A stretch of 33,617 nucleotides of DNA from Armatimonadota bacterium (GTDB lineage: Bacteria; Armatimonadota; JAAZEB01), in the NCBI GenBank assembly GCA_012512505.1, contig JAAZEB010000263.1, positions 1-33,617 of the forward strand, written 5' to 3'. The notes under the pieces are model-generated. The model made no database searches. It saw only the letters and a list, made by a program, of their open reading frames with translations, and was not told the DNA's origin. Shown here one piece after another: positions 11,910 through 32,244 of this stretch. Position 1 is the first letter of the stretch; each line of letters opens with the position of its first letter. Position numbers and translations under genes: made by a program.

Positions 11910-12116
11910 CAGTGCAGAACCTTTCGCTGCAATAGTTCCCCCGCGTTGGGCCTCTCCCTCTCGCCCGCGGGGGGCAAAACGGGGCAGCCGGTCGCCTGGG
12001 TCGCAAGCAGGTGGCCCAGGCCGCGCACCGCGGGCGGAGAAGCCGACCGCGCGCGGTGGGGCGCCCAAAAACATTATGTTGGGGTGCGCCGGCAGCGCGC
12101 GCCCTATATATTGGGC

Positions 12117-17494: not shown

Positions 17495-17591
17495 GGGACG
17501 ATCAACGAACCACTGCGCCCGCTCCGCGACAGGCGCCGGGCGCGCCACTGTGGTCTTCAGCCACGCTTGCGGCTTGTTTCGGAGGGGTGCG

Positions 17592-18611
17592 ATGAAGAAG
17601 GCTGTGATGCTGGGCGGGGGTCGGGCCGGGGTCGTCACGGTGCCCGATCCCTGCCCGAAAGAGGACTGGGCGCTCGTCAAGGTGCACGTGGCGCCGATGT
17701 GTGCCGAGTACAAGGCGTATCAGGCCGGTGACGCCGGCGATGGCTTCGGCCACGAGGCAGCCGGCGAAGTGGTGGCCGTGGCCCAGCCCTGCGGCGTGTC
17801 GGTGGGCGACCGCGTGGTGGTGATGCCCCTTTACCCGTGTGGCCGATGCCCGCTCTGCCGTGCCGGCGAGTACATCCACTGCGAGCACCCTTACGACTTC
17901 GCGGCGTTCACCGGCGCGCCGGACGGCTGGGCGACGATGGCGCAGTACGTGCTGAAGCCGGCCTGGCTGCTGCCGAAGATCCCGGACGACCTCAGCTACG
18001 AGCACGCGGCGATGGCCTGCTGCGGCCTTGGCCCCACCTTCGGCGCTTGCGACCGGATGGCTGTCAGCACTTTCGATACGGTGCTGATCACCGGGATGGG
18101 GCCGGTGGGTTTGGGCGGGGTCATCAACGCCCGCTACCGTGGCGCCCGCGTTCTGGCGGTGGAGGCGCATCCCTGGCGTGCCGAGCGCGCCCGGCGGCTG
18201 GGGGCGGAGGCGGTGATCGACCCGCGCCGGGAGGATGCCCTGCGGCAAATCCTGGACCTCACCGGCGGCGTGGGGGTGGACAAGGCGATCGACTGTGCCG
18301 GGGTGCCGGCGGCCCATCGCCTCTGCATTGACGCCACCCGCCGCCAGGGGCAGGTGGCCTTCGTCGGCGAGTGCCTGGAGCAAACCCCGGTGCGCGTCAG
18401 CCCAGACCTGATCCGCAAGGGCCTGACGCTGCACGGCGTCTGGCACTACAACCTGGCGCGCGTGCCGGCGATCATGCAGGTGATCCGCGCCTCCCGCGCC
18501 GCGCTCGACCTCCTGATCAGCCACACGTTTCCCCTCGACCGGGTGGAGGACGCCTGGAGGCTGCAGGCTTCTGGCGAGTGTGCCAAGGTGCTGCTCAAGC
18601 CCTGGGAGTAG
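17592..18611 (+). CDS. Zinc-dependent alcohol/sugar dehydrogenase (MDR family)
   Basis: This 339-aa medium-chain dehydrogenase oxidises a secondary alcohol or polyol with NAD(P). The catalytic zinc site uses Cys37 (APMCAEY) and His54-Glu55 (GFGHEAAGE). The structural zinc site is CGRCPLCRAGEYIHC (Cys83, 86, 89, 97). The Rossmann fold has GMGPVGLGG, and an acidic residue follows at VLAVEAH, which favours NAD. It resembles sorbitol/threonine-type dehydrogenases. GGAGGGG lies close to the ATG; the frame is open upstream but overlaps the preceding gene region without conserved sequence. It is probably co-transcribed with the enolase-superfamily gene. Its stop is only 9 nt from the stop of the convergent peptidase/nucleotidyltransferase gene, leaving no room for a terminator. 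Confidence 0.93.
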   Translation: MKKAVMLGGGRAGVVTVPDPCPKEDWALVKVHVAPMCAEYKAYQAGDAGDGFGHEAAGEVVAVAQPCGVSVGDRVVVMPLYPCGRCPLCRAGEYIHCEHPYDFAAFTGAPDGWATMAQYVLKPAWLLPKIPDDLSYEHAAMACCGLGPTFGACDRMAVSTFDTVLITGMGPVGLGGVINARYRGARVLAVEAHPWRAERARRLGAEAVIDPRREDALRQILDLTGGVGVDKAIDCAGVPAAHRLCIDATRRQGQVAFVGECLEQTPVRVSPDLIRKGLTLHGVWHYNLARVPAIMQVIRASRAALDLLISHTFPLDRVEDAWRLQASGECAKVLLKPWE

Positions 18612-18620
18612 GCTCTCCGT

Positions 18621-20363
18621 TCAGGCAGCCTTGCGCGTGCCGATCACCCGGCGAAGGTCGCCGACGGCGCGGCGGAGACGAGCCGGGCGGAACAGGAAGG
18701 CCAGGTACCGCCAGGGGGAGCCGCGCAGCGGACGGATTGTCGCGATCGCCGTCGGGCCGGGTAGGAAGGTTTGCTGGATGCGGCGTAGCCGCCAGCGGAA
18801 GGGCAGGAAGGGGAATTGGCGCCCGAGAACTGCCAGGCGGTTTCCCACGAGGCCAGGACGGGGGATCGGGCTGCCCGTGCCTGCCCGGCGTCGCTCGAGC
18901 GTGGGGGCATCGGGGCAGAGCGCGGCGATCACCGTTTCCGGCACCGGCGCCTGAAGATACTCCCGCACCCACCACAGCGTGTGCCCCACCACGAGGCTTG
19001 CCCTGGCCGCCCGTGCGCGCGCGATCACCAGGTCCCAGTCCACCGCGTGCTGCTTCGTCAGCTCCGCCACGTCGCAGAAGCCATGCAGGCTCAGCGCGCC
19101 GTGCTGGAAGAAGTGCAGGGCCAGGTAGACCAGGTTGTCCTCCACCGCCAGGATGTGCGCGGGCGCGCCGGCAATCGTCACCTGCCGCGACCGTTGCCAC
19201 ATCGCGGCAACATCGAGCTGGAACGGGCGGTGCGGCCCGGCGAGGCACCAGTGGGCCTCAACCGGACTGGCCGCCTGGGGATGCGTGAAGCTCAAGTGGT
19301 GACCAACGCGCTCCTGCGGTGCGCGCGTGGCTGGATCGGCTTGGCGGGGGCTGTAGCCCAGGCTGGTGAGCAGCGCCTCGACGCGGGGGAGCTGCCCCGG
19401 AGGCGCCAGCACGTCCAGATCCGACATCGGGCGCAGGCCAAAGCTCCCGTAGACCAGCTCGGCGAGCGCGGCACCCTTCAGGACAACCAGCGGCTGGCCG
19501 GCTTCGGCCGCTGCCATCAGCAGAGAGCGCAGTTGGCCGCGCAACCGGAGGCCACGCAGGGCGGCGGCGTGGGCAAAGCGCTGAAGAACGGCTCGCTGCG
19601 GCTCCGGCACGGCCTGCCTGAGACCCTGCTCCTGGAGGTGGTGGTACAACAGCGGTCCAAGGCCCTGGTCACACGCGACCCGGAGAACGGCGGACCAGTC
19701 GACCCGCCCGGTGACGAGGGCGGCAAACGCCTCCCGCTCGTCCGCCGGGAGCCGAACCCGCGCGGCCAGCAGCAGCAGGCGGGCCTCGGCGGTAAGCTCC
19801 GGCCGGGCAGCGGAGACAGGGTGGCAGCCTGCCCAGAGGCGGAGGAAGGCGCGCAGAGGGAGAGCGGCCGCTATTCTCCCGGCCCGGCGCAGAACCCGAG
19901 CCGGGATGCGTTTGCTTCGCCGCAGGCCGCGGGGCGCCAGCCGCCCCAAGGCACCGTAGAACAGTGACTGCCAGCGTGAGAGCACGGCTGCCCCCACGGC
20001 CAGCCAGGCGGAGCCGCGGCCGTCCAGCCGCACGACGCGACCGCCACGGTGGATGGCGACAACCCTGGCGATCACCTGGTTGGAGAGGATCGGGGCATCA
20101 CAGGCGCGAGCGCGGTCGCCCTTCGTGATCAGTTGGCGCGGGGCATCCGGGCGGCCCCGATGCATTGCCACGATGCGGTGGGCGATGCTGACGCCGCCAG
20201 CCCGGAACACCACCACGTCGCCGAGGCGCAGCGCGCGCGGGAGCAGCTCCACTTCGAGGCGATCCCCCGGCTGGAGCAGGGGCATCATGCTGCCGCCGGT
20301 GACCGGAAGCGTGGCGGCGGGCTCTGCCCCGGTGTCCGGCGCGGGGGGTGCCTGCAACTCCAT
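18621..20363 (-). CDS. Fusion: S24/S26 peptidase + NTP_transf_5 nucleotidyltransferase
   Basis: This 580-aa protein joins two domains. Residues 18-105 are an S24/S26 (SipW-like) peptidase: GGSMMPLLQPGD gives nucleophile Ser25, SIAHRIV gives His62 in place of the usual Lys, and LITKGD (78-83) with Asp89 follows. There is no N-terminal membrane anchor. Residues about 190-560 look like the NTP_transf_5 family: VLKGAALAELVYG (294-306) and RPMSDLDVL (311-319), with metal-binding-type Asp315 and Asp317. A basic linker (about 140-165) separates them. Both domains are often encoded as separate neighbours near PqqD and HprK-like genes. The frame opens to 20561, but that part overlaps the pseudopilin gene; ATG 20363 leaves a 37-nt gap. 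The Shine-Dalgarno is weak. Possible roles are leader removal plus nucleotidyl transfer to the peptide; this is inference. Confidence 0.82.
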   Translation of the reverse strand: MELQAPPAPDTGAEPAATLPVTGGSMMPLLQPGDRLEVELLPRALRLGDVVVFRAGGVSIAHRIVAMHRGRPDAPRQLITKGDRARACDAPILSNQVIARVVAIHRGGRVVRLDGRGSAWLAVGAAVLSRWQSLFYGALGRLAPRGLRRSKRIPARVLRRAGRIAAALPLRAFLRLWAGCHPVSAARPELTAEARLLLLAARVRLPADEREAFAALVTGRVDWSAVLRVACDQGLGPLLYHHLQEQGLRQAVPEPQRAVLQRFAHAAALRGLRLRGQLRSLLMAAAEAGQPLVVLKGAALAELVYGSFGLRPMSDLDVLAPPGQLPRVEALLTSLGYSPRQADPATRAPQERVGHHLSFTHPQAASPVEAHWCLAGPHRPFQLDVAAMWQRSRQVTIAGAPAHILAVEDNLVYLALHFFQHGALSLHGFCDVAELTKQHAVDWDLVIARARAARASLVVGHTLWWVREYLQAPVPETVIAALCPDAPTLERRRAGTGSPIPRPGLVGNRLAVLGRQFPFLPFRWRLRRIQQTFLPGPTAIATIRPLRGSPWRYLAFLFRPARLRRAVGDLRRVIGTRKAA

Positions 20364-20400
20364 CGTCTGTCGTGTTGCCTTTCTGAACCCGGCGTCTGCC

Positions 20401-21066
20401 TCAGTAGATGCGAACGTGCGTTGCGGTGTAGTAGCCGTCGGCCCGCACCGTCCGCACGTGCCCGTCGGCGAAGAGCAGGTTGGCATTCCGACGGTGCCAG
20501 GCAGCGGCATCCACAAACACGTTGATCTCGGCTGGTCGCGGCAGCGACGGCACCGAGACATGACTGAGCGCCAGCTCCGTGCGGTAGATGTAGCTGGTGC
20601 CGAAGCTCTCGAACACCGAGGTGCAGTTGGGCGTATAGCGCCACCCGATGTCGCCGGGGCAGTGCCACACGCGCGGCTCGCCGGACAGGTAAGGGAGCAG
20701 CACCTGGTCGATGTTGGTGTTGGTCGGGTGTGCCGCGATCAGGCGCAGCACCTGCTCGTGGTACGACTCACCGGTCCACGGGTTGTAAGCGTTGCGCCAC
20801 TGGTTAGGGTTCAGGCGGTCAGTGGGATCCAGCCCATAGGGAAAGAGGCAGTCGTAGTCCTCGTGGTAGAGCTGGATCGCCTGCCCAAGCTGGCGCAGGT
20901 TGGAGGTGCAGGTGGCCTGCCGGGCGCTGTGCCGGGCGGAGGCCAGCACCGGCAGCAGCATCGCCGCCAGTAGGCTGAGGATGGCCACCACCACCAGCAG
21001 CTCGATCAGTGTAAACCCTGCTCGGCCGCTGCCACTCCCCTTGGCCCAGCCAGTCCGTGCCCTCAT
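20401..21066 (-). CDS. Type IV pseudopilin-like protein with H-X9-DG motif
   Basis: This 221-aa protein starts with a prepilin leader and a GFTLIELLVVVAILSLLAAM segment (residues 17-36), cleaved before Phe by prepilin peptidase. Near the C-terminus is HRRNANLLFADG, an exact H-X9-DG motif. This is the DUF1559-type architecture abundant in Planctomycetes, Armatimonadota and Lentisphaerae, where many paralogs per genome are usual. The globular part has conserved-looking QLGQAIQLYHEDYD, and a WHCPGD segment typical of the family. The start at ATG 21066 is set by the prepilin motif; GGAG lies 14 nt upstream. It follows the small peptide gene by 74 nt on the same strand. The paralogs' functions are mostly unknown; it probably sits in the inner membrane facing outward. 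Confidence 0.92.
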   Translation of the reverse strand: MRARTGWAKGSGSGRAGFTLIELLVVVAILSLLAAMLLPVLASARHSARQATCTSNLRQLGQAIQLYHEDYDCLFPYGLDPTDRLNPNQWRNAYNPWTGESYHEQVLRLIAAHPTNTNIDQVLLPYLSGEPRVWHCPGDIGWRYTPNCTSVFESFGTSYIYRTELALSHVSVPSLPRPAEINVFVDAAAWHRRNANLLFADGHVRTVRADGYYTATHVRIY

Positions 21067-21140
21067 CTCCCCATGCGGATCTCCGCCCGGCACACCCGGC
21101 GCCGCCTGCCCTATGGCCGGCAGCGCCGCAACCGCCGCGG

Positions 21141-21341
21141 CTAGAGTTGCTCTAGCATCTCCAGAACATCCGTGTCCATCGTGTCGAAGCTGAACCCTGT
21201 CCAGCACGCCCGGACCGGCCCCAGCCGCTGCAGCAGTTCTTCCTCCGAGTAGAGGATGACCTGCGGTGGGGTATAAGGCAACCGTTCCTCCACCGGCTCC
21301 GCCGTGGGGGTATTGGCACTGGGGTGTCTGTTGTCTGTCAT
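21141..21341 (-). CDS. Candidate RiPP precursor peptide (66 aa)
   Basis: This is a 66-residue peptide with a strong Shine-Dalgarno (AAGGAG, 7 nt before the ATG), so translation is likely. Residues 1-20 are polar and probably unstructured. Then comes YTPPQVILYSEEELLQRLGP (23-42), which has the look of a RiPP recognition sequence: a Pro-containing beta strand that could add to a PqqD-like fold, followed by an acidic helix. The C-terminal part, RACWTGFSFDTMDTDVLEML, has a single Cys (46), aromatic residues and several Asp/Thr. There is no GG cleavage motif and no signal peptide. It lies 54 nt after the C25 peptidase gene and upstream of the pseudopilin and peptidase/nucleotidyltransferase genes. 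That it is the substrate of the radical SAM enzyme about 6.5 kb upstream in the same run of genes is inference. Confidence 0.7.
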   Translation of the reverse strand: MTDNRHPSANTPTAEPVEERLPYTPPQVILYSEEELLQRLGPVRACWTGFSFDTMDTDVLEMLEQL

Positions 21342-21395
21342 CAGGATGCTCCTTCCTCAGCACACGAATGGCCCGCGAAGGGGCGTGACTTCTGT

Positions 21396-23642
21396 TCATT
21401 CCGATTGGGTGCCCGGCTGGCTGGCGTTGCCCGCGGCGGCGGGCCAGCGCAGGCGAAGCGCGGGATCGCCCAGCAAGACGTAGGTCTCTACTGGATCCCA
21501 GCGCTCCCAGCTCCGTGAGGTGATGAAGACCCGCCGCGCCTCGCGGAAGGCGACGCCGATCGGGGTTTCCCGGTGCTCCAGCAGGTAGGGCACCAGTTCC
21601 CGCGCTAGGTCGAGCCCGCCCATCCGCGATGGCGAGATGCAGGCAATGGCCCCACCCTGGGCCGAGAGCAGCAGGCTTTCGGCCAGGCAGTGTGTGCCCG
21701 GGGTGTCTGGCCGGTCGAACCACCCGGTGAAGCAGGTGATATCGATGCACAGCGGCGGCAGGGCAGACGCCGGTGCCTTCTGCAGGTCGCGCGCTTCCAG
21801 CACCTTTTGCCCCGCCCAGTAGCGGTCGCCGCCGTGCCCATGGTAGACCAGCAGAACACCCCCCTCCTTCAAAAAGCGCTGCACCCGGGGGGTGAACGTT
21901 TGGCGAACCAATCGCGTGCGCTCGTTATTGGGCAGCTTGGGGTCTACCGTCCGCAGCGCCAGGACTTCTGCTTCCACCTGCGCCTGGCGGCACTGCTCGG
22001 CCAGGCGTTCGATGCTGCGCTCGAAAAGACCCACCGTCGTGTTGTTGGTCTCGTGGTCGGCCACCAGGAGGGCACGCGCCGGGCCCGCCGGGGGTTCGCC
22101 CTGCTCGTAGCGCAGGATCTTGGCGACCACGGCGGCCGTCTCCTCCGGGGTGCGCACCGGCAGCCGTCCCACCGCCAGCTCTGGCTGGTGGTCGTCATCC
22201 ACGCAGCCGAAGTACCAGTCGGTCGCCGGGGGGATGTTGCCCGAGACCGGCGCCAGGTAGGAGGGCACCAGGTTGGGCACGCCCGTCTTCCGATAGTCGC
22301 GGTAATCGTAGTTGGCGTCGCCCACCAGCAGCAGGAAGCCGGGCGCCGGCTTTTGCCACCGCTGGGAGGCATAGCGCACGAAGGTCCGGATGGCCGCCGG
22401 GGTAAACACCCCCTCGCCGAACTCGTCGTAGATCTCGCTGACGGGGGCCACGTAGACGCGCATCCCCTGCTGACGGCGCCACTCCAGCAGCGGCTGCAGT
22501 GCCGGGATCAGCGCGTCCGCCGCAACCACCAGGTAATCGGCCCCCAGCGCGGGGTCGCGCAGCCCGGAAGGCTCGTCTTTCCGCACCCAGAGGGGGGAGT
22601 ATGGTTCGCGGCTGGCCAGGATGCGGCGTCCGGCCCCGGGCGCGAGCAGGGTCAGCGCCTGCTGCCGTGTCACCCCTGTCAGGCGCACTGGCGCGAGCGG
22701 CTGGCTGACATCCAGCAGGATCGGCTGGGGTCCGAGGCCGGCGATGGCGTAGGTCGCCTGCCGGTTTGCCCCTTTTGGGGTGCGGAGTTCGAGCTGGCTT
22801 CCGGTCAGCGTCAGTTGACGCGGGTAGGTGAGCTCCACCCAGTCCAGGAAGACCTGGTCTACCTCGCCGGCAGCGGTGTCTCCCGGGCACTCAATGGCAA
22901 GGGTGTTCTGCCCCGCCCGGATCGCACCCGCCGGGAGGTCTGCGGTGATGCGGTGCTCTACCTGGCCGTCCCAGGTGGCGTCCTCCAGCAGCCGTCCATT
23001 CCAGAACACACGGGTGTGGTGGTCTGGGTTGGCGGTGAAGGAGAGCGTGTTGCCAAACAGCGAGACCACCAAGCGGCCGGCCGCGTTGGCGGCGGGCTGC
23101 GGTGGTGTGATGGTGAACTCCTGGCGCTGCTTGGCGGGGACCAGGCGCCAGAACCAGTGTGGCACCTTTTCCGGTTGGGCGGCATAGAACAGCTTGCCGT
23201 AGGTGCGGTTCTCCTCGAAGCGGACGGTGGTCGACACGGCGCGCGCCGCACGGCCGTTCCCTTTGGGGGGAGCGGCCGTGCGAGAGGCAATGCGCCGACC
23301 TGGCGGACCCCCGTAGGCCAGCCAGTAGACGTTTGTGTCGGTGTACTCGGTATCCAGGCCCTCGCCATAGAAGAGGAGCGCGTCGCCAGGATCAAAGCGT
23401 CCGTCGGCCGCTCCCGTCACCAGGAGGGCCACCGGACGCCCGCCGCAGCCAGCGCGGATCGTGCGCGGGTTGACCTTCGCCAGCGGCAGGCCCGCCGCCG
23501 CCAGCTCGGCGCCCGTTACCCGGTAAAGCCCGGTGCGGTTCACCCCGATCTTCCAGTGGCCGTCGGCGTGCGCGCCGGCCGCGGACAGCAGCAGCCCTAC
23601 TGCTCCGACGATCCATCCGGTTCGCGTTGCCATTCTGGTCAC
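21396..23642 (-). CDS. Secreted C25 (gingipain-like) cysteine peptidase
   Basis: This 748-aa exported protein has a signal peptide (GWIVGAVGLLLSAAGAHA, about residues 9-26). A beta-rich N-terminal region includes a carbohydrate-binding-like sandwich (about 140-270). The caspase-like C25 peptidase domain covers about 365-740. The catalytic pair is His603 in VYHGHGGDRYW and Cys637 in CIDITCFTGW; their 34-residue spacing matches gingipains. The end, VLLGDPALRLRW, is typical of the family. There is no type IX secretion C-terminal domain, so export is probably by Sec alone. I chose GTG 23642 because AGGAG lies 5 nt upstream; ATG 23633 is the alternative. The gene lies directly upstream of the precursor-like peptide and could process that or surface proteins. 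Confidence 0.9.
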   Translation of the reverse strand: MTRMATRTGWIVGAVGLLLSAAGAHADGHWKIGVNRTGLYRVTGAELAAAGLPLAKVNPRTIRAGCGGRPVALLVTGAADGRFDPGDALLFYGEGLDTEYTDTNVYWLAYGGPPGRRIASRTAAPPKGNGRAARAVSTTVRFEENRTYGKLFYAAQPEKVPHWFWRLVPAKQRQEFTITPPQPAANAAGRLVVSLFGNTLSFTANPDHHTRVFWNGRLLEDATWDGQVEHRITADLPAGAIRAGQNTLAIECPGDTAAGEVDQVFLDWVELTYPRQLTLTGSQLELRTPKGANRQATYAIAGLGPQPILLDVSQPLAPVRLTGVTRQQALTLLAPGAGRRILASREPYSPLWVRKDEPSGLRDPALGADYLVVAADALIPALQPLLEWRRQQGMRVYVAPVSEIYDEFGEGVFTPAAIRTFVRYASQRWQKPAPGFLLLVGDANYDYRDYRKTGVPNLVPSYLAPVSGNIPPATDWYFGCVDDDHQPELAVGRLPVRTPEETAAVVAKILRYEQGEPPAGPARALLVADHETNNTTVGLFERSIERLAEQCRQAQVEAEVLALRTVDPKLPNNERTRLVRQTFTPRVQRFLKEGGVLLVYHGHGGDRYWAGQKVLEARDLQKAPASALPPLCIDITCFTGWFDRPDTPGTHCLAESLLLSAQGGAIACISPSRMGGLDLARELVPYLLEHRETPIGVAFREARRVFITSRSWERWDPVETYVLLGDPALRLRWPAAAGNASQPGTQSE

Positions 23643-23647
23643 GTCTA

Positions 23648-23995
23648 CTCCTGCTTCCTGGTTGCTTGGGTTACTTCCCGCGTTTCCCCCGGGAACTGGC
23701 GGCCGGTGCCGAGACAGAGACCGGCGCCAGGCGCTGCACCCGGCCCGAGGTGTGCCGCACTTCCAGGCAGTAATACTGCCCTGCCCGGCCCCGCGCGCCG
23801 CCGTCCACAAAGCGGCAGGTACGCGACCCGGGGGGAATCAGCCGGGGGGTGACCCGGGTGAACGGACCCTCCAGGCGGGCCGCGCGCAGCACATGGTAGC
23901 CGGCGACATCGCTGCCTTCCTCGGGCGTCCACTCGACGGTTACCTTGCCGGAGGGCGCCCGGGTGGCACGCAGACGCCCCACCGCGGCCGCCAGG
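23648..23995. repeat. Direct repeat, copy 1 (348 bp)
   Basis: This segment aligns without gaps to 25382-25729 (offset 1734 bp). I count about 15 mismatches over 348 positions. It covers the last 108 codons of one IPT/FN3 gene plus the following spacer. The upstream parts of the two genes are far more divergent. Confidence 0.93.
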
Positions 23996-24957
23996 GGTTC
24001 CCCAACGGCGAAGGCGTTCTTCAGTTCGCCCGAGTCATTCGTGCCCGGGTAATCGACGACGATGTTGTAGATGCCCTCCGTTTTGCCTAGGAGGTCAAAC
24101 GTGCCGGTGATCTGGGTGTTGTCCGGCGACACGGTGACGTTGGTGGCAGTGATCTTGGAAGACTCGTCCCCCTCCAGATACATGTGCAGGGTTGCGCCCT
24201 CGTAGAAGTGGGCGCCGGTCACGGTGACATCCTGCGGTCCGGTGTTCGGGGCGGCCTGGGGAACCACTTTCTCGATCTGAGGCCGGAACACCAAGCGTAC
24301 GACCGGTTGCAGGTTGGTTCCCTCTGGCCCGGGCCAGCCCCCGCCTTCCTCCATGACAGTGGCATAGAGGGTCCGCTCCGTGCCCAGGCCTGAGGCCGCG
24401 CAGGTGGCTGCGGGTGTGCTAGTGGTGTTGTTCTCCAAGGCGAACCCGATCAGCAGGTTTCTCACACCATCATACGTGAACGGCGTGGTGAAGTCGAAGC
24501 GGAGCCAGCCCGTTTGGCTCACGGATATATTCCCTGAGTAGACCAGCGGCCATGGATCCCCTGTATCATCATCTGGCCAGATGGGCACATTCATCTCCGT
24601 ATGGTCCATCTGTATCTCAAACTGCCCGCTCAATGGCGCCGGGAGTTCGGTCACGTTCAGCTCCAGGGCGACGATCTCGCCCCCCCTGCCGATCTCATTC
24701 TGGAGATAGACAGACAGGGTGCGGGCTGCGGAAACCGCCGTGTTGAGGGGGTACTCCCAAGTTGTCGGGGTACCGCTTTCGCCGATCACCTTCCCTTGCG
24801 CGGCGGCGGGGCGAGTGCCAGCGCAGAGGAGGGCGCCCAGGGCCAGGAGCAGGATCCCGGTCAGGCGGCGGCCAGGCGCGCGGCGCGCCACGGGAGCGCA
24901 CCGGAGGAATGCGCGTCCGGCGGGCCGGACGCAACCTTGTGGCAGGAACAGGTGCAT
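23671..24957 (-). CDS. Secreted IPT/TIG + FN3 domain protein (copy A)
   Basis: This 428-aa exported protein has a long basic N-terminal region with a hydrophobic core (GILLLALGALLCAG, 34-47) and a likely cleavage site near AAAQ (51-54). A jelly-roll-like domain follows (about 58-225, with GWLRFDFTTPFTYDG). An IPT/TIG immunoglobulin-like domain covers about 228-318, and an FN3-like domain about 323-415, ending in a basic tail (SSRGKRGK). Such proteins usually mediate surface binding or adhesion. AAGGAGGT lies 7 nt before ATG 24957, which fixes the start. It is a paralog of the gene at 25405, with which it shares its ribosome site, first residues (MHLFL) and an almost identical C-terminal block (321-428). 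The C25 peptidase gene follows after 28 nt. Confidence 0.85.
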   Translation of the reverse strand: MHLFLPQGCVRPAGRAFLRCAPVARRAPGRRLTGILLLALGALLCAGTRPAAAQGKVIGESGTPTTWEYPLNTAVSAARTLSVYLQNEIGRGGEIVALELNVTELPAPLSGQFEIQMDHTEMNVPIWPDDDTGDPWPLVYSGNISVSQTGWLRFDFTTPFTYDGVRNLLIGFALENNTTSTPAATCAASGLGTERTLYATVMEEGGGWPGPEGTNLQPVVRLVFRPQIEKVVPQAAPNTGPQDVTVTGAHFYEGATLHMYLEGDESSKITATNVTVSPDNTQITGTFDLLGKTEGIYNIVVDYPGTNDSGELKNAFAVGEPLAAAVGRLRATRAPSGKVTVEWTPEEGSDVAGYHVLRAARLEGPFTRVTPRLIPPGSRTCRFVDGGARGRAGQYYCLEVRHTSGRVQRLAPVSVSAPAASSRGKRGK

Positions 24958-25039
24958 CGGTGGAACCTCCTTCTTCACTCGCCACTGCCGGCAGAGCGCA
25001 AGCGCCGCGCGCCGGCAGCGGCCGGTACCATTGCGGTGC

Positions 25040-25390
25040 CCGGCAGGTAGACCCGGCCTTCGAGGGTGGCCGGGCTCCTTCCCACCCGGCTGGCCCCCGC
25101 CGGGAGCATCGCGCGGACGCGGTGCCTCCCCCGGCCGTTCCTGGTAGCGTCCTTCCACTGCCAACCGTTGGCGAGCCCGCGGGGATGGTGATCCAGGCTC
25201 GCGGCAAAGGGGAGTGTGCTGCCGCGAAGCAAGACCACCGGGCGGTCGGCCGTGTTGGCGACTAGCTTCGGCAACAAGCGAGCGGACTCCTCGCGCTCCT
25301 TGTGCATGCACCAATAACAGAATCGACCGGGTCTCCGTTCCGGTTGGGTGCCGCCGCGGGTCGCGGACCGGGTTACGCCTGCTCCTGCTT
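25040..25390 (-). pseudogene. Decayed remnant of a second C25 peptidase gene
   Basis: The 447-nt space between the two IPT/FN3 genes holds a relic of the C25 gene. Just after the stop at 25405, the sequence matches the C25 start region, including the AGGAG site, but the GTG start is GTA (25374-25376) and the ATG position reads TCC. After a deletion of roughly 170 codons, a second segment (about 25074-25259) encodes ANTADRPVVLLRGSTLPF, DHH, DAT and LPAGA. It aligns to C25 residues about 185-245 (ANAAGRLVVSLFGNTLSF, DHH, DAT, LPAGA). The catalytic domain is absent. A 149-codon open frame (24975-25424) crosses the relic but is not expected to be translated as such. Confidence 0.8.
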
Positions 25391-25729
25391 CCTGGTTGCT
25401 TGGGCTACTTTCTGCGTTTCCCACGGGAACTGGCGGCCGGTGCCGAGACAGAGACCGGCGCCAGACGCTGCACCCGGCCCGAGGTGTGCCGCACCTCCAG
25501 GCAGTAGTACTGCCCCGCCCGGCCCCGCGCGCCGCCGTCCACTAAGCGGCAGGTACGCGACCCGGGGGGAATCAGCCGGGGGGTGACCCGGGGGAACGGA
25601 CCCTCCAGGCGGGCCGCGCGCAGCACATGGTAGCCGGCGACATCGCTGCCTTCCTCGGGCGTCCACTCGACGGTCACCTTGCCGGAGGGCGCCCGGGTGG
25701 CACGTAGGCGCCCCACTGCGGCCGCCAGA
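25382..25729. repeat. Direct repeat, copy 2 (348 bp)
   Basis: Partner of the segment at 23648-23995, aligned without gaps. Weaker similarity continues past its low-coordinate end into the decayed C25 start. This shows that the original duplication covered both the IPT/FN3 and the C25 gene. Confidence 0.93.
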
Positions 25730-26706
25730 GGCACGCCCCCGTCCTCCACAACGAGCCGACCGGGTTGCTCATCCGAAAGGCCGTCCGGATTGGTGATGAG
25801 CACCCCGTAGAATCCCAGCGGTGCTCCGGTGAGGTTGAAGGTGCCGGTGATCTGGTGATCTTCCGTCACGGAGACGTTGGTGGCGGTGATCCGGCCCTCC
25901 GGCCGCGTCAGCTTCAGGGTGGCGCCCGCGTGGATGTGGGTGCCGGATACCGTAATCGTCGCCGGCGCGTCGTTCTTCACGGTGGCTGGGCTGGCGCCAC
26001 CCACGTGAGGCCCGACTAGCAGCCGCACGTTCGGTCGTTCATCAGCGGGACCAGGCGCTGGGAGGGGGTTCCCTGACACCACGACTTGGGACGTGAGGGA
26101 GCGTGTCTCTTCTGTTGTTGATGGAAGGGACGACCGGCACAGACCAGCGAGCACGCGCTGCAGGCTGGAGAGACTGAACTCCACCAGCAGGTTGCGGGTG
26201 CCGTCGTAGGCAAACGGCTCATCGAACACGAATCGGCGCCAGCCTGTCGTGCCGGCTGGCTCACTCTCTCGGTAGTAGACTTGCACCCAATCCCCATCCA
26301 TCCAGGGGCGCGGCTTCCCCCCTCCCGGGTCAGGTGGAACGATAGATTGCTCGGTATGCGCCATTCGGATCGTCCAGTGATCGAGCGCTCGGGATGGCGC
26401 CCGGGACACATCCAGGTCCAGGGCGAGGATGCTCCCGCGAGTGCCGACCTCTGTCGCCAGGTAGATGGTCTGGCAGCGAGCCGCGAACGCTTGGGTGTTG
26501 AGGGGGAAAGCCCATGGCGACTCGCCGGTACCAATCGACTGCTCGTGGGCGCTGGCGGGTGGGGCGCCGGCGCCGAGGAGGGTGAGCAAGGCCAGGGGCA
26601 GTGCCCCGGCATGCCGGTAGTCTGGCGCGCGGCGTGCGTGGTGGGCACACCGGCGGAGGGCGCGTCCGGCAAGCCGGACGCGGGCGGGCAGCAGGAACAG
26701 GTGCAT
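25405..26706 (-). CDS. Secreted IPT/TIG + FN3 domain protein (copy B)
   Basis: This 433-aa paralog of the protein at 23671 has the same order: basic N-terminal region, hydrophobic signal core (ALPLALLTLLGAGAPPASA), jelly-roll-like domain (GWRRFVFDEPFAYDG), IPT/TIG domain (TVKNDAPATITVSGTH onward) and FN3-like C-terminal domain with a basic tail (SSRGKRRK). GGGAGG precedes the ATG. Jelly-roll and IPT parts are clearly divergent from copy A, while the last 108 residues differ at only three positions. It lies 75 nt downstream of the HprK-like gene on the same strand. Divergent outer domains on a common base would suit different binding targets; that is inference. Confidence 0.85.
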   Translation of the reverse strand: MHLFLLPARVRLAGRALRRCAHHARRAPDYRHAGALPLALLTLLGAGAPPASAHEQSIGTGESPWAFPLNTQAFAARCQTIYLATEVGTRGSILALDLDVSRAPSRALDHWTIRMAHTEQSIVPPDPGGGKPRPWMDGDWVQVYYRESEPAGTTGWRRFVFDEPFAYDGTRNLLVEFSLSSLQRVLAGLCRSSLPSTTEETRSLTSQVVVSGNPLPAPGPADERPNVRLLVGPHVGGASPATVKNDAPATITVSGTHIHAGATLKLTRPEGRITATNVSVTEDHQITGTFNLTGAPLGFYGVLITNPDGLSDEQPGRLVVEDGGVPLAAAVGRLRATRAPSGKVTVEWTPEEGSDVAGYHVLRAARLEGPFPRVTPRLIPPGSRTCRLVDGGARGRAGQYYCLEVRHTSGRVQRLAPVSVSAPAASSRGKRRK

Positions 26707-26781
26707 CGGTGGAACCTCCCTCGTTCGTCACCGGTGTCCGAGGATGACGAATGCGGCGCGTTGGCACCGGCCGGCACTGTC

Positions 26782-27867
26782 TCAGTACTCGGAAGGCAGG
26801 GTGGTGCCGCGGCCGCGGCAAAGCGAGTCCACCAGCGCGACGGTAGCGGCCAGTGGCCCGGGCCGCAGGCTTATGGGCACCGTGTCCTGCAGAACTGCTC
26901 CTAGCTCCTTGAGAAAGGGGAATAACCCCCCTTGCGGGGTGTTGCCGCCGGGCCGGTTCAGGGCGGCGGCGGCGAGCGACAGCCAGGCGGCCGACGGCGC
27001 TATTGCCTCGGCGCGTGGCGGCGCCTCAAAGCTGGGCCGCGCGGTCGGCGCAGTGTCGGTGCCCAGCAGCAAGACGTTCTCCTGCTGGCACGCCTGCGCC
27101 CAACGCCGCAGCGGCCCAGGTGAGAGAACTCGCTCCCAGGAGAGCGTCACGAATCCCTCGCTGGCGGCTACCCGAGCCCCGGCCAACTCGGGGTCGGTGG
27201 CGAGCCTCCGCGTGAGGGCCGGGGTCAGGTGGCTCACGGCCACGCGGCTCGGCTCGGTCTGTGCACTGGTCGGCAAGATGAACACGTGCCGAATCGGCAC
27301 CTTCAAGTGCGCGATCTCCGGCTGCCAGCAGAAGCGCGTCTCCTCCCCCGCGAGCGACCAGGGCTGAGACCGCTCCCGCAGCTCCGGCAGCAGGCACAGC
27401 GTCTGTGGGCGGATGAGCACCCCCCGGGGGAACGACTCCAGGAGGCCGGTGGTCCGGTCGATCGCGGCCACCTCATCCGACAGCCACTGGTAGCCCTGTC
27501 GCGAGAGGGCCAGCGCCAGGGTAGTCTTGCCGGCGCCGCTCTCGCCCACGATCAGCACGCCGCCATGCGGGCCGGCCAACGCCGCCGCGTGCAGCAGCCA
27601 GTGGGTGCTGACGCGAGTCACGATCTCGGTGAAGATCAACTCCTCCGCCAGCGTCTCTCCTGCCCCCGGCGCGGCCAGTTGGCGGGTGCTGCCGCAGCTG
27701 ATGGCGCGCACGCCCGCCGCCGCCGAGACCTGCAGCCGCAGCGGTGCCGCGGCCGATACCGGCACCAGCGCCGGCCGGTAAAGATACGCGAGCGCCTCCC
27801 ACAGCCGGTCGCTGTCGCACTCAACCACCGCCTCGGAATCGAGAAATCGCAGACCAAGGGAGGGCAC
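26782..27867 (-). CDS. HprK-like P-loop kinase of a PqqD/radical SAM cluster
   Basis: This 361-aa protein resembles the HPr-kinase C-terminal (HprK-related) family. The Walker A motif is GESGAGKTT (108-116) after LLHAAAL, and LSDEVAAID (129-137) follows as in HprK/P. The N-terminal 80 residues are divergent and do not look like the classical HprK N-domain. Such HprK-related proteins sit next to PqqD-like and NTP_transf_5 genes in HPr-rel-A-type systems and are related to kinases that phosphorylate RiPP precursors. Its substrate here is unknown; the 66-aa peptide is a candidate. GTG 27867 starts 4 nt after the radical SAM gene stop, with GGGAG about 10 nt upstream, so the two are translationally linked. 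The frame stays open to 28044, but this overlaps the radical SAM gene. Confidence 0.82.
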   Translation of the reverse strand: MPSLGLRFLDSEAVVECDSDRLWEALAYLYRPALVPVSAAAPLRLQVSAAAGVRAISCGSTRQLAAPGAGETLAEELIFTEIVTRVSTHWLLHAAALAGPHGGVLIVGESGAGKTTLALALSRQGYQWLSDEVAAIDRTTGLLESFPRGVLIRPQTLCLLPELRERSQPWSLAGEETRFCWQPEIAHLKVPIRHVFILPTSAQTEPSRVAVSHLTPALTRRLATDPELAGARVAASEGFVTLSWERVLSPGPLRRWAQACQQENVLLLGTDTAPTARPSFEAPPRAEAIAPSAAWLSLAAAALNRPGGNTPQGGLFPFLKELGAVLQDTVPISLRPGPLAATVALVDSLCRGRGTTLPSEY

Positions 27868-27871
27868 GGCG

Positions 27872-29242
27872 TCAGGACTCCCTCGCCACCGGCGACGCCT
27901 GCCGGCGCTCCTCGGCCCAGCCGAACAACGTCTGCGCGTAGTACTCCCGGCGGACGGCGCAGAGGTCATCGTGCTGCCACCAGTCTGCCTGGTGCAGCCA
28001 GGCCAGGCCGGGGCAGGACGCGCGACAGTAGCGGCGCCACTCACAGGCCCGGCATTCGGCGATGCGCTCTACTCGGGCGGGCACCAGCGCCCGCAGTTGC
28101 CGGGCCGCCGGCGAGGCGAGCGCCGCCGCCAACCCCTCGGCCTCCGTGTTGCCGAGGCGGTAGCGGGCATCCGCCAACAGGATGCAGGGGTAAACGCTGC
28201 CATCCACATCGATGAGCGCGCACTCCCCGGCTTCCAGCGGGCAGGTGGTCTCCCGGGGATCGCCACAGCCCGCCACGACGATCCGCTCGTGGTGCGCGCG
28301 CAGCAGCGGGCGCAGGGCGCGCACCAGGGCCACGCGCTCCTCGGCGAAAGTTGAGAGTTGCTCCCAGTTTCCGACCGCGCAGCCGCGGGGCGCCAGCCAG
28401 ATCAGGTAGAGGCGGCCGACCCCGAGGGTGAACGCCTGCTGGGCCAGCGTGCTGATATGCGCCAGGTTGTGGCGGTTGACGCAGGTGCTCCACGTCATGC
28501 GCGGCACAACGCCGCGATCCAGCAGGCGCTGGATTCCCGCCATCGTTCGGGCGTAGGCGCCCGGCCCCCTCAAGGCGTCGTGGGTCTCCGCGTCTGGTCC
28601 ATCCAGGCTCACCTGAACATGCACCCCGGCGTCGGCGAGGAAGTCGGCCGCTTCCTCACTGACCAGGGTGCCGTTGGTCACCACCGTCACCTCAAACCGC
28701 GCGGTGGCCGCGCTCACGATCGAGCGCCACTGCGGGTGGGTGAGGATCTCGCCGCCCGTCAGGACGACCGACACGGCCCCCGCGGCCTGACACTGGTCGA
28801 GGCGTGCCTGGAGGACGGGGAAGGGAACCGGCCGCCCTTGCAGCACCCCTTCGGAGGCGGGCGACTGGAAGCAGTGCCGGCAGGTGAGGTTGCAGCCGGC
28901 GGTGGTGTGAAGGGTGACGCGCAGCCGGACGGCGGTCTCCTCGCGCGGGCGGCACTCCGGCGCGGGGGTGGGCCGCTCGTCCAGCAGCAAGCCGGCCCGC
29001 TGCAGTTGCTGGAGGTAGCGGGAGACATCTTGCTCCGCGCGCTGCACCGTCACGGCATAGCGCCGGGCCAGGTCGCGCGCCAGATCACGCCAGCTCACCT
29101 CCCCGGTGCAGCTTTGGGCCAGGCGGCAGCCGAGCGCATCGACCACGCACCAGGTGCCCCGGGCCGGGCTGAGGAGCAGAAAGAGGTCTCCCTGCTGCTG
29201 GATGGTGGTATCAGGCAGCAAGCGCGGGTGTTCAGGGAGCAT
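27872..29242 (-). CDS. Radical SAM/SPASM peptide maturase with N-terminal PqqD-like domain
   Basis: This 456-aa protein begins with a PqqD-like winged-helix domain (about 1-90, ending LLLDE), used in RiPP systems to bind leader peptides. The radical SAM domain has CNLTCRHC (Cys117, 121, 124) for the 4Fe-4S cluster, LTGGE (161-165) and VSLDG. The C-terminal SPASM region binds auxiliary clusters through Cys334, 341, 353, 397, 400, 406, 410 and 428 (CALIDVDGSVYPC, CRACEWRRYCRASC). This architecture is typical of enzymes such as PqqE and sactionine or ranthipeptide synthases. GGAGGAGG lies 8 nt before ATG 29242. It overlaps the end of the small PqqD gene by 11 nt, which implies translational coupling. 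The modification made is unknown. Confidence 0.92.
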   Translation of the reverse strand: MLPEHPRLLPDTTIQQQGDLFLLLSPARGTWCVVDALGCRLAQSCTGEVSWRDLARDLARRYAVTVQRAEQDVSRYLQQLQRAGLLLDERPTPAPECRPREETAVRLRVTLHTTAGCNLTCRHCFQSPASEGVLQGRPVPFPVLQARLDQCQAAGAVSVVLTGGEILTHPQWRSIVSAATARFEVTVVTNGTLVSEEAADFLADAGVHVQVSLDGPDAETHDALRGPGAYARTMAGIQRLLDRGVVPRMTWSTCVNRHNLAHISTLAQQAFTLGVGRLYLIWLAPRGCAVGNWEQLSTFAEERVALVRALRPLLRAHHERIVVAGCGDPRETTCPLEAGECALIDVDGSVYPCILLADARYRLGNTEAEGLAAALASPAARQLRALVPARVERIAECRACEWRRYCRASCPGLAWLHQADWWQHDDLCAVRREYYAQTLFGWAEERRQASPVARES

Positions 29243-29564
29243 TGGGGGGCCCTCCTCCAGGGCCGCCATCAACCAGGAGACCGGCCGCGTGGAGGCTGGC
29301 GACCGTTGCGGCCACCTGCGCCTCGATGTGCGGCTCCGCCGCGGTGTCGAAGCGGGCGCGCACGGCGGCGCTGATGTCGGCCACGCTCCGCGTGCCATCG
29401 CACTGCTGCCAGATGAAGTGGGCCGTGCGATTGAGGACCCCTACCTGACCGCTGGTCTGGTGGTAAAGGAGAACTTCGTGGCCGAGTGACTGTTCCTGGA
29501 CGGTGGATTCCCGCAGGGGAAGGGATGGCGAAGTTGGGTTCTTGGGCATCGGCGTCATGTCCAT
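29232..29564 (-). CDS. Stand-alone PqqD-like RiPP recognition protein
   Basis: This protein of about 110 aa is PqqD-like over residues 30-97: HEVLLYHQTSGQVGVLNRTA, then FIWQQCDGTRSVADISAAV and a helix ending AAGLLVDG. Such proteins bind precursor leader peptides and present them to the maturase. The first 20 residues are Pro/Met-rich and look disordered; the last ten are Gly/Pro-rich. The start is unclear: ATG 29564, 29558 and 29549 and GTG 29576 are all possible, and none has a good Shine-Dalgarno. It is the first gene of the 11-kb - strand block, and the next gene begins inside its last codons. It resembles the PqqD_rel_X type of HPr-rel-A systems. Confidence 0.82.
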   Translation of the reverse strand: MDMTPMPKNPTSPSLPLRESTVQEQSLGHEVLLYHQTSGQVGVLNRTAHFIWQQCDGTRSVADISAAVRARFDTAAEPHIEAQVAATVASLHAAGLLVDGGPGGGPPNAP

Positions 29565-30024
29565 CGTTGCGAACACAAGGCGTTAGCAGACAGACGCGAC
29601 CTTTGGTAGGTAGGCCGCGGGAAACATCCCACGCGCGAGGCAGGAGACCATTGTGCCTCAGCACTGCGCCTGGGTGCACCTGGCCGGGGGATGCCTCTAG
29701 CTCCTGCCGCCGCCGCGTGTTGGCAGCAACCGCCAACGTCTCACCCACCCACTTCGCGGTAAGCTTCCGACTCTCCTGTGGCTGCCTCTGTGAATTTGCT
29801 GCCTTGATGGCGAGGTTTTGCCTTGGGGCGCGGGAGTGCGCCCTGCAGAAGGCAGGCCGGGACGGAGAACGGCCCCTACGCAGCCGGGTGCGGTGAGCGT
29901 GAAGGCGCCCCTCCGTTCGCGCTTGCCAGTGGCCCGCCGTACTTCCATTCCTGAGCATTCATCCCCGTTTGCAGGGGCTTCACCGGGGCGAGGAGTGCCG
30001 AGCCGTTGGCGCGAAAGGGGAGCC
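29565..30024. other. Divergent intergenic region of the RiPP-like cluster
   Basis: These 460 nt separate the first gene of the - strand block from a + strand hydrolase. I find no convincing -10/-35 pair on either strand and no coding sequence with a ribosome site. Weak structures are present: GTTGGC/GCCAAC around 29718-29737 and GGGCGC/GCGCCC around 29826-29843. The promoters for both directions should lie here. Confidence 0.5.
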
Positions 30025-32244
30025 ATGTTTCAAAACACTGCGACACGCGCGGCGCTGGCCGCCGTCATCACCTGCTTGCTGGGCATCGTGGGGCCTACCG
30101 GCGCCCAGGACGACCCGGAGGTTGTCCTCGGGCCGTTCGAGGAAGTGGCCGTCGTCGAGGACTTCCCCGCCGACCGGCAGGCGCACTGGAAACCGAGCGC
30201 CGGGAGCAACGTGGTTTACGCCGTCGAGGCCGGATGCGAGCTGCCGGGGGTGGCCGCCACCCTGCTGCGGCTGCACCCCCGCCAGCAAAACCGCTCCGAT
30301 TCCGAGCCGAGCCACAACTGGTTTCAGATCGCCCGCGACGATCTCCCGGCGGGGGCGGTGCCGGCGGGCATTGATGGCTTTCGCTTCCTGCTGGCCTCCC
30401 ATGCCGAGGCGCAGTGGTGGATCCAGGTGAACCTCACCACCCGCGACGGCCAGACCTTCTCCACGCTGCTGGCCGACCACAGCTTCCCGGCCGGCCGCAT
30501 CGTCGAGTACACCGTGCCACTGGCCGAGTTCCGCTCGGAGCAGCAGGAGAGCCTGACGGCGGAGCGGGCGCGCGGCCTCCGCGGCATCGCCTTCACCCTG
30601 AGCACGCCGGGCACCGCGCTTTATATCGACCGCGTCTCCGTCTACCGGCAGGCCCGGCTCTCCGCCTGGCTCGACCTCACTACCTCCCGCCCGCAAACCA
30701 ACCTCTTCCAGCGCACCGACCCGGTGGCGCTCACCTTCCGCGTGGGGGGCACGCCTCCGGCCGCGGCCCGCGGCTTCCGCGTCGAAGTGCGCGACTTCTG
30801 GGCGAAGGTGGTCCAGCGCCATACCGTGCGCCTGACCAACGCGCGTGAGTACACCCTGGACGCCACCCCCAAGACGCACGGCTACTACGAAGTGCGCGCC
30901 TTCTGGACCGACGCGGCCGGGAAGGACCTGCAGCCGCACTCGTGCCTGCGCGCCGAGGGAACCGTTCCGGCCGGAACCGGCACCTTCTCGGTGGTGCCGG
31001 GCACGGTGGCGGAGAACGTGGCCCGGTTCAAGCGTCTTGGCGCCCGCGCCTTCTTCGGCCTCCATGGTGACTTCCTCGGCCTGGCCGACCACGTGGGCCT
31101 CGCCTGGCGGTTCGACTACCTCGGCTGGCGCTGGATCGAGCCCGAGCGACCCGACCGCTCGGCTGGCCCGGCGACCTGGGCGCGTGACCTGGTGAAGAAC
31201 GCCCCGGAGCCAGACTACCGCTTCCACATCCTGCCGTTTCGCGGCAACCTGCGCAGCGAGATCCCCGCCTGGGCGTTGCGGCAAGGCGACGAAGCGCCCC
31301 CCTTCGCCGACTGGGAAGATTACCTGGCGATGCTGCGCGACTACGTGCGGGCGGAGAAACAGCTTTACCCCCACATGAAGCCACGCCTCTACGGCGGCGC
31401 CTGGGAAGTGAACCTGAACATGCCGCCCTACGCGAGCCAGCCGCCGGAGTTCACTCCTGCCCAGGTGGTGGAGCTTTTCCGGCGCACCCGCGCCGTGGTG
31501 AAGGCGGAGGATCCCGACGGGTGGGTGCTGGGTCCCTGCCCCTCGGTGATCGACCTGGAATGGTTCGAGCGGCTGTTCCAGGCCGGGGTGCTGCGCTACC
31601 TGGATGGCATCGAGACCCACGGCTACTGCGAGCGCGTCTTTACCCCGGAGGAGAACGACTTCCCCGGCAAGCTGGCGCGGCTGCGGGCGCTGATGCGGCG
31701 CTATGGCGGCCGGGTGCTGCCGATCTACTGCACCGAGGCGGGCCACCCCGGCATCCTCGGCGCCCAGATCACCCACCACTCCCAGGCGCAGCGGATGGTC
31801 CGCACCGCCATCATCCTGAAGGGCGAGGGCGTGCGCGTCTTCCTCCCCTTCTACGGCATTGACTACGCCCGCGCGGGCTACTGGGGCTTCTGCTTCAACA
31901 AAGAGGTGGATCCCCCGGCCGGCCCGTGGTCCACGAAGCGCATCAGCCCCAAGCCGATGGTGAACGCCGTCGCCGCCTGCGTGCGGCTGCTGGAGGGTGC
32001 CGCCCCCAAAGCGCGCTTGCGCACCCTGGGAGACGACGTGTGGGCCTACACCTTCACCCGCGATGGCACCACTATCACCGCCGTGTGGACCCCTGGCAAA
32101 GCCAGGACGGTGCGGCTTCCGGTTGGCAAGGCGCCCTCGGTGGAAGTGGTGAACCTGATCGGCCACTCGCGCCGGGTGAAGGCCAGCGGCGGCGCCATCC
32201 GCCTGCCGATTGACGGCTCGCCGCAGTACGTCTGCTACCGGTAG
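30025..32244 (+). CDS. Secreted clan GH-A-like glycoside hydrolase
   Basis: This 739-aa exported protein has a signal peptide (AALAAVITCLLGIVGPTGA, about 9-27). A carbohydrate-binding-like beta sandwich follows (about 35-215, with FLLASHAEAQWWIQVNL), then an Ig-like segment (about 220-320), a TIM-barrel-like domain (about 325-640) and a C-terminal beta domain. YGGAWEVN (Glu461) and IYCTEAG (Glu571) are placed like the acid/base and nucleophile of GH39/GH-A enzymes, but the usual NEP is replaced by AWE. The overall plan parallels the hydrolase at 409, without LamG. GGGGAG lies just before the ATG. Open sequence to 29818 precedes the signal peptide and is not coding. Substrate unknown; not confidently assigned to a GH family. 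Confidence 0.8.
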   Translation: MFQNTATRAALAAVITCLLGIVGPTGAQDDPEVVLGPFEEVAVVEDFPADRQAHWKPSAGSNVVYAVEAGCELPGVAATLLRLHPRQQNRSDSEPSHNWFQIARDDLPAGAVPAGIDGFRFLLASHAEAQWWIQVNLTTRDGQTFSTLLADHSFPAGRIVEYTVPLAEFRSEQQESLTAERARGLRGIAFTLSTPGTALYIDRVSVYRQARLSAWLDLTTSRPQTNLFQRTDPVALTFRVGGTPPAAARGFRVEVRDFWAKVVQRHTVRLTNAREYTLDATPKTHGYYEVRAFWTDAAGKDLQPHSCLRAEGTVPAGTGTFSVVPGTVAENVARFKRLGARAFFGLHGDFLGLADHVGLAWRFDYLGWRWIEPERPDRSAGPATWARDLVKNAPEPDYRFHILPFRGNLRSEIPAWALRQGDEAPPFADWEDYLAMLRDYVRAEKQLYPHMKPRLYGGAWEVNLNMPPYASQPPEFTPAQVVELFRRTRAVVKAEDPDGWVLGPCPSVIDLEWFERLFQAGVLRYLDGIETHGYCERVFTPEENDFPGKLARLRALMRRYGGRVLPIYCTEAGHPGILGAQITHHSQAQRMVRTAIILKGEGVRVFLPFYGIDYARAGYWGFCFNKEVDPPAGPWSTKRISPKPMVNAVAACVRLLEGAAPKARLRTLGDDVWAYTFTRDGTTITAVWTPGKARTVRLPVGKAPSVEVVNLIGHSRRVKASGGAIRLPIDGSPQYVCYR

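Follow-up and report, generated by a model that had tools for sequence, protein, structure and literature searches.

A gene cassette of Armatimonadota and other phyla that may couple RiPP-type peptide maturation to C25-protease processing of FN3-tailed surface proteins

We analysed a 33,617-nucleotide stretch of DNA from an Armatimonadota bacterium (contig JAAZEB010000263.1 of assembly GCA_012512505.1; hereafter the window), which is the whole of contig G000:C172 of a 5.66-Mb draft genome. Gene calls on the whole contig placed nine minus-strand genes between 29576 and 18621 in an operon-like arrangement, and by sequence comparison these belong to a cassette that is a real, conserved unit, common to bacteria of at least three phyla. 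From 29576 downward they encode a PqqD protein, a PqqD-radical SAM/SPASM enzyme, an HprK-like kinase, the secreted proteins IPT1 and IPT2, a C25 peptidase, a 66-aa peptide, a pseudopilin and an S26-NTP_transf_5 protein (Table 1). On balance, we think it probable that this one cassette couples maturation of a ribosomally synthesised and post-translationally modified peptide (RiPP) to C25 processing of surface proteins that end in an FN3-type domain, a coupling suggested by gene order and by the co-occurrence of the peptide genes with C25 and FN3-tail genes. The gaps between successive genes are -38, 4, 75, 447, 28, 54, 74 and 37 nt, so that the sole break in the block lies between IPT1 and IPT2. 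An initial annotation, made from the letters of the window, had named these genes on one strand in this order with overlaps or mostly short gaps, and that description holds, the 447-nt gap being the one long interval.

Within the window's phylum, close relatives of the radical SAM enzyme were present in two other genomes among 291 (G226 and G035), each from a different family. G226 carries genes for PqqD, radical SAM, HprK, C25, an S8 protease with an FN3-type tail, the peptide, the pilin, S26 and NTP_transf_5 (L022, L024), and G035 (L014) has the same gene order; the stand-alone PqqD orthologs at L022 and L014 share 47% and 40% identity, respectively, with that of the window. When the top candidates of each of the 291 genomes were scored, close orthologs of the pseudopilin (59–63% identity) were found only in the three cassette genomes. 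In G265, at the end of a contig, a peptide homolog comes immediately after a C25 gene, and HprK was not found in this 85%-complete draft. A contig search with the radical SAM enzyme gave only distant enzymes among the matches listed, which says nothing on absence elsewhere. A further locus of this phylum (L182:4222-13376, G005), in which C25, PqqD and two FN3-tail genes lie together and no peptide was found, is possibly a reduced or divergent cassette.

Beyond this phylum, the peptide profile led to Ca. Aminicenantes CS4-C018 (L142), where the peptide lies with PqqD-radical SAM, HprK, C25 and PqqD genes, and where S26, NTP_transf_5 and the pilin are missing. A genome of the same class, Aminicenantia (G425, L150), has an FN3-tailed SBBP protein, NTP_transf_5, the peptide, radical SAM, HprK and C25. 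In Planctomycetota, the phylum of a Brocadiaceae genome, the peptide was detected in 9 of 216 genomes at E 1e-4. Six of the loci there (L174, L175, L176, L178, L180, L196) combine the peptide, HprK, C25 and S26 with FN3-tail genes, often together with NTP_transf_5 and PqqD and generally without radical SAM in the examined stretch; at another (L179, G565) two peptides and a radical SAM gene lie with an FN3-tail gene, and different kinds of gene come next. The constant partners are the C25 protease and usually FN3-tailed exported proteins, with S26 and NTP_transf_5 usually present. The radical SAM enzyme, which the initial annotation had made part of the set, is present in the window and, to judge from the loci compared, is optional in the cassette, being absent from the examined loci of most Planctomycetota cassettes. 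Recurrence across phyla, conservation of the peptide leader across phyla and a predominance of third-codon changes make the arrangement more than chance. The view of the block as only a local accident was rejected, and the proposal that it is one functional unit is borne out by two other families that keep the whole set with almost no change of order, by a core of peptide, radical SAM, HprK and C25 in Aminicenantia and by peptide, HprK, C25 and S26 in Planctomycetota; the co-occurrence with a conserved small peptide that had been suggested as a check was found.

The peptide gene starts with an ATG preceded by AAGGAG, and its product gave no family match in Pfam and NCBIfam searches. Base changes between it and its nearest homologs fall 5/4/10 and 4/4/10 by codon position; most differences among the three nearest homologs are at third codon positions, the mark of a translated gene, and the leader carries this coding signature. 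Across cassette loci the leader reads Y-x-x-P-x-[VIL]...[LIF]-G-[PTA], the window-type form being YxxPxV...LGP, which is similar to the YxxPxL motif of lasso peptides, to which RiPP recognition element (RRE)/PqqD domains bind. Recognition of lasso peptides by the PqqD-like B1 protein depends on the Tyr, Pro and Leu of that motif (PMC10368454). The core contains Cys at all six loci that have both peptide and radical SAM (window, G226, G035, G296, G425, G565), and lacks it in 5/6 cassettes without radical SAM in the examined stretch, the exception being G599 (Fisher p 0.015, with loci partly related and the G564 pair not counted). The G564 pair consists of two orphan peptides (..LGPAHTHYGCRRNG) that lie amid ABC-type permease-like genes and a transposase-like open reading frame (L177:8738-11166); the pair has a Cys, and no radical SAM gene was found nearby. 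Near-identical peptide copies with short cores occur in several Planctomycetota genomes, and at L175 and L176 (G525, G598) several such copies alternate with FN3-tailed surface genes. Weak peptide matches in G246, G017 and G287 were judged spurious by genomic context; another weak match lies in G290.

The exported neighbours share a C-terminal domain with a predicted FN3 fold (predicted local distance difference test score, pLDDT, 93), for which the proteins tested gave no Pfam or NCBIfam match save a very weak fn3 hit in IPT2 (E 0.04). It often ends in a basic tail (..RGKRGK, ..KRQKRK, ..ARRRRR). The 3' ends of IPT1 and IPT2 (25405-25735 and 23671-24001, minus strand) are identical at 313/331 nt and the remainder of the genes differs, which is what a recent duplication or gene conversion would leave. 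Of 25 peptide genes, 17 follow an FN3-tail gene of the same strand at a distance of no more than 400 bp. Strong tail matches (E 1e-15 or better) were found in 14/15 peptide genomes vs 3/51 controls and, with the genomes that supplied the profile left out, in 3/4 vs 3/51 (Fisher p 0.003). In the three controls, the tail is part of a C25 protein at L183 and L184 and has a C25-PqqD pair next to it at L182. Among 100 other loci there were two tail matches, both in C25 proteins of loci picked for C25, and none in the ~95 loci not picked for it. Because every strong tail in the controls and every tail in the other loci is fused to or beside C25, the two go together. The only strong tails in the window's genome are those of IPT1 and IPT2. 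The largest set seen in one genome, 33 matches spread over many contigs, is in G565. Rather than forming the output apparatus of the pathway, these FN3-tailed proteins look like its clients. The earlier proposal of a RiPP pathway with an exported output is upheld in part: RRE/PqqD, radical SAM, HprK-like kinase and NTP_transf_5 genes do stand beside a peptide and exported components, and the role given to the FN3-tailed proteins appears to be a different one.

All cassette C25 proteins tested scored best against the PorU sortase model, at 258–322 bits with a cut-off of 420 (window 258.3; others 275–322), and PorU (6za2) is the nearest solved structure to the window's protein (E 4e-21). PorU has been proposed to act like a sortase, cutting off C-terminal domains and adding an anchor by transpeptidation (PMC4560394). 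The window's C25 has both the His (YHGHG) and the Cys (DITC), and catalytic GHG and C motifs were present in 14 of 15 C25 proteins compared, including that of the window; G599 was unmatched in the motif search. No peptide was found alongside C25 relatives in G251, G021 and G250; a further relative, in G085, sits on a contig too short for such a comparison.

Among the enzymes, PqqD and radical SAM/SPASM had both been recognised by the initial annotation; the block in fact has two PqqD domains, one a stand-alone protein and the other, which had been missed, at the N-terminus of the radical SAM enzyme, whose radical SAM and SPASM Cys columns are invariant across five homologs. A predicted model of the divergent HprK-like protein (pLDDT 85) matches the PEPCK/HprK fold, and the P-loop GKT with its lysine, the SD motif and a distal Arg are retained in 10 homologs. 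The HprK homologs of lasso pathways act as peptide kinases, and the addition of a hexose to the resulting phosphate has been linked to a nucleotidyltransferase (PMC8498205); this precedent is the basis of the roles that we propose, by analogy, for the cassette's kinase and NTP_transf_5 protein. The S24/S26 domain described earlier is indeed fused to NTP_transf_5 in the window, the two being separate open reading frames in G035 and G226, and it resembles the archaeal/SipW-type signal peptidase I most closely (TIGR02228, E 3e-11, under the cut-off). Leader cleavage by this domain under the -3/-1 rule (V-R-A|C, A-R-A|C, A-V-G|C, A-Q-A|C, A-L-A|C) would suit the Cys-bearing peptides, yet the idea is weak because the peptides have no hydrophobic signal segment, and we set it aside.

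The coupling that we favour would proceed as follows. In the cytoplasm, PqqD domains would bind the peptide leader, the radical SAM enzyme, where present, would modify the Cys-bearing core, the HprK-like kinase would phosphorylate the peptide, and NTP_transf_5 may decorate the peptide phosphate, like its relatives on lasso peptides. The modified peptide would be exported by some presumed route and then trimmed. Outside, C25 would process the FN3-tailed proteins, with the modified peptide as tag, acceptor or partner in that step, and in the window's version a dedicated pseudopilin would take part. A narrower form, which we consider unlikely, is a sortase-type system in which the PorU-like C25 removes or opens the FN3-type tail and joins exported proteins to the kinase-modified (sometimes radical SAM-modified) peptide as anchor or tag, the window's lineage having a dedicated pseudopilin in the surface structure.

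Several observations weigh against a coupling of this kind. The window's own peptide comes after C25 and not after an FN3-tail gene, no FN3-tail gene adjoins the Aminicenantes locus L142, many FN3-tail genes have no peptide nearby, and FN3 is a generic fold. Cassette genomes supplied most of the tail profile, which included the IPT2 tail, and the Planctomycetota loci are related, so that their counts are not independent. On the export side, the window cassette has no transporter and the 66-aa peptide has no signal peptide. An Arg downstream of the catalytic Cys, present in PorU, absent from gingipains and discussed for the sortase role (PMC4560394), has a possible counterpart in an SPSR-type loop only in the C25 proteins of the window, G226, G035 and G265, and its alignment to the PorU Arg is insecure.

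The cassette might instead make a free exported RiPP (an antibiotic, signal or cofactor), matured by C25 and, in other genomes, by S8 proteases, with the FN3-tailed proteins as adhesins or enzymes that share no more than its regulation; we regard this as possible, if rather less than likely. Such a product would account for maturation genes that are in line with RiPP practice, for the place of C25 just before the peptide in the window and G265, and for S8 preceding it in G226 and G035, but it leaves unexplained why some peptide genes are paired with FN3-tail genes away from the enzymes (L143, L181, L190, L191) and why near-identical short-core copies accumulate in Planctomycetota. Neither a transporter nor an immunity gene is present in the window block, and the C25 is nearest PorU, an enzyme that acts on proteins. 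A regulatory loop, with phosphorylation of the peptide or PqqD by the HprK-like kinase controlling expression or secretion of surface proteins, is improbable: the HprK/PEPCK fold, the P-loop and HPr kinase ancestry would suit it, yet it would not account for PqqD, radical SAM or NTP_transf_5, and the nearest precedents for HprK homologs beside PqqD are peptide kinases. Chance abutment of an unrelated RiPP-type operon and surface-protein operon, to which the 447-nt gap and the lack of S26, NTP_transf_5 and pilin at L142 might point, is already strongly disfavoured and very improbable, as the mixed order, with C25 adjoining peptide-modifying genes, recurs in different families and phyla and the pilin ortholog is restricted to cassette genomes.

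Table 1. Genes of the minus-strand block of the window, in gene order.
Feature	Position	Strand	Details
PqqD/RRE protein	29232..29576	(-)	114 aa; alternative ATG 29564; Pfam PqqD 2.7e-15
Radical SAM/SPASM enzyme with N-terminal PqqD domain	27872..29269	(-)	Pfam Radical_SAM 4.5e-22, PqqD 1.2e-9, SPASM 1.3e-8
HprK-like kinase, GTG start	26782..27867	(-)	HprK_rel_A 4e-13, Hpr_kinase_C 3e-5
Secreted protein IPT1, FN3-type C-terminal domain, basic tail ..SSRGKRRK	25405..26706	(-)	Tail profile E 3e-22
Secreted protein IPT2, IPT1 paralog, tail ..SSRGKRGK	23671..24957	(-)	Tail profile E 1e-23
Secreted C25 peptidase, PorU type	21396..23642	(-)	Pfam C25 8e-73; best NCBIfam T9SS_sortase 258 bits
66-aa precursor-like peptide, leader YTPPQVILYSEEELLQRLGPVRAC	21141..21341	(-)	Homologs in other families and phyla
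DUF1559-type pseudopilin, prepilin N-terminus	20401..21066	(-)	Pfam N_methyl, SBP_bac_10
S26-type signal-peptidase-like domain fused to NTP_transf_5	18621..20363	(-)	NTP_transf_5 1.4e-57; sigpep_I_arch 3e-11

The block is flanked by a secreted glycosidase-like gene without a Pfam match, which is on the plus strand and divergent from it (29818-32244), and by an alcohol-dehydrogenase-like gene convergent to it (17346-18611). The glycosidase-like gene, the only flanking gene searched for at the other cassettes, had no relative there. An RNA family scan of the window gave no match. Elsewhere in the window, the translation of DnaE (DNA polymerase III alpha; 6951-12074, minus strand) contains an intein-like insertion, noted by eye only (CLTGDTLILMADG ... 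HNFVANDMVVHNS).

The cassette would link RiPP-type peptide modification to C25/PorU-type processing of surface proteins outside Bacteroidota, two fields that are rarely connected, and suggests an unstudied way to finish or attach surface proteins. Sets of an HprK-related kinase, NTP_transf_5 and PqqD, which occur here in several phyla, have no assigned product; because the cassette adds a defined peptide, a protease and candidate clients, their function becomes directly testable. The initial annotation had known of no described system with this combination of genes, and we likewise found no description in the open-access literature, subscription papers being mostly outside its coverage.

Among known systems, the HPr-rel-A set, under which the block had been filed, has an HprK-related kinase, a PqqD relative and NTP_transf_5, like the window; membership was rejected on scores of 49 bits vs a cut-off of 200 for HprK_rel_A (TIGR04352) and 28.2 vs 35 for PqqD_rel_X (TIGR04353), and the window adds radical SAM, C25, the peptide and FN3-tail proteins. 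The T9SS (type IX secretion system) enzyme PorU has the closest C25 catalytic domain, and its exported clients, like the client-like proteins here, share a C-terminal beta-sandwich domain; however, the window's protein falls below the T9SS_sortase cut-off (258.3 bits vs 420) and was not assigned to it, the tail of the client-like proteins is FN3 and no described T9SS sorting domain, and the T9SS has no peptide-modifying genes. Phosphorylated or glycosylated lasso peptides (paeninodin, pseudomycoidin) share RRE/PqqD, a YxxPx(L/V) leader, an HprK homolog and a nucleotidyltransferase (PMC8498205, PMC10368454). Unlike them, the cassettes carry radical SAM or no cyclising enzyme, and a lasso pathway was rejected on the lack of a B2 protease and of an ATP-dependent, asparagine-synthetase-like cyclase domain among the nine genes. 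SynChlorMet (ScmC-ScmF) likewise places PqqD, radical SAM/SPASM, HprK-like, S26 and NTP_transf_5 genes near a small Cys-bearing peptide, and ScmF is the best score of the window's radical SAM enzyme. That system has two radical SAM enzymes, ScmE and ScmF, whereas window-type cassettes have one or none; with a single radical SAM, ScmF at 108.7 vs 400 bits, ScmD at 34.9 vs 100 and no ScmC match at E 0.1 in the block, the window was not assigned to it. A WOR-3 locus of the SynChlorMet type (L054) has three PqqD-like genes, two radical SAM genes, a Cys-rich peptide, an ABC-transporter-like gene, S26 and NTP_transf_5; its Scm models score near or above their cut-offs (ScmC above), and no C25 or FN3-tail gene was found there. 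At L054:13013-14815 the HprK-like ScmC is fused to an S26-like signal-peptidase domain. An Aerophobetes locus (L083) holds PqqD, radical SAM, HprK-like, S26 and NTP_transf_5. Judged from genes alone, the cassette has what RiPP pathways generally have, a precursor whose leader is conserved, encoded next to an RRE and modifying enzymes. As L054 and L083 show, its peptide-modifying half has wider relatives; this branch is distinguished by C25, by the FN3 tail and by its family of leaders.

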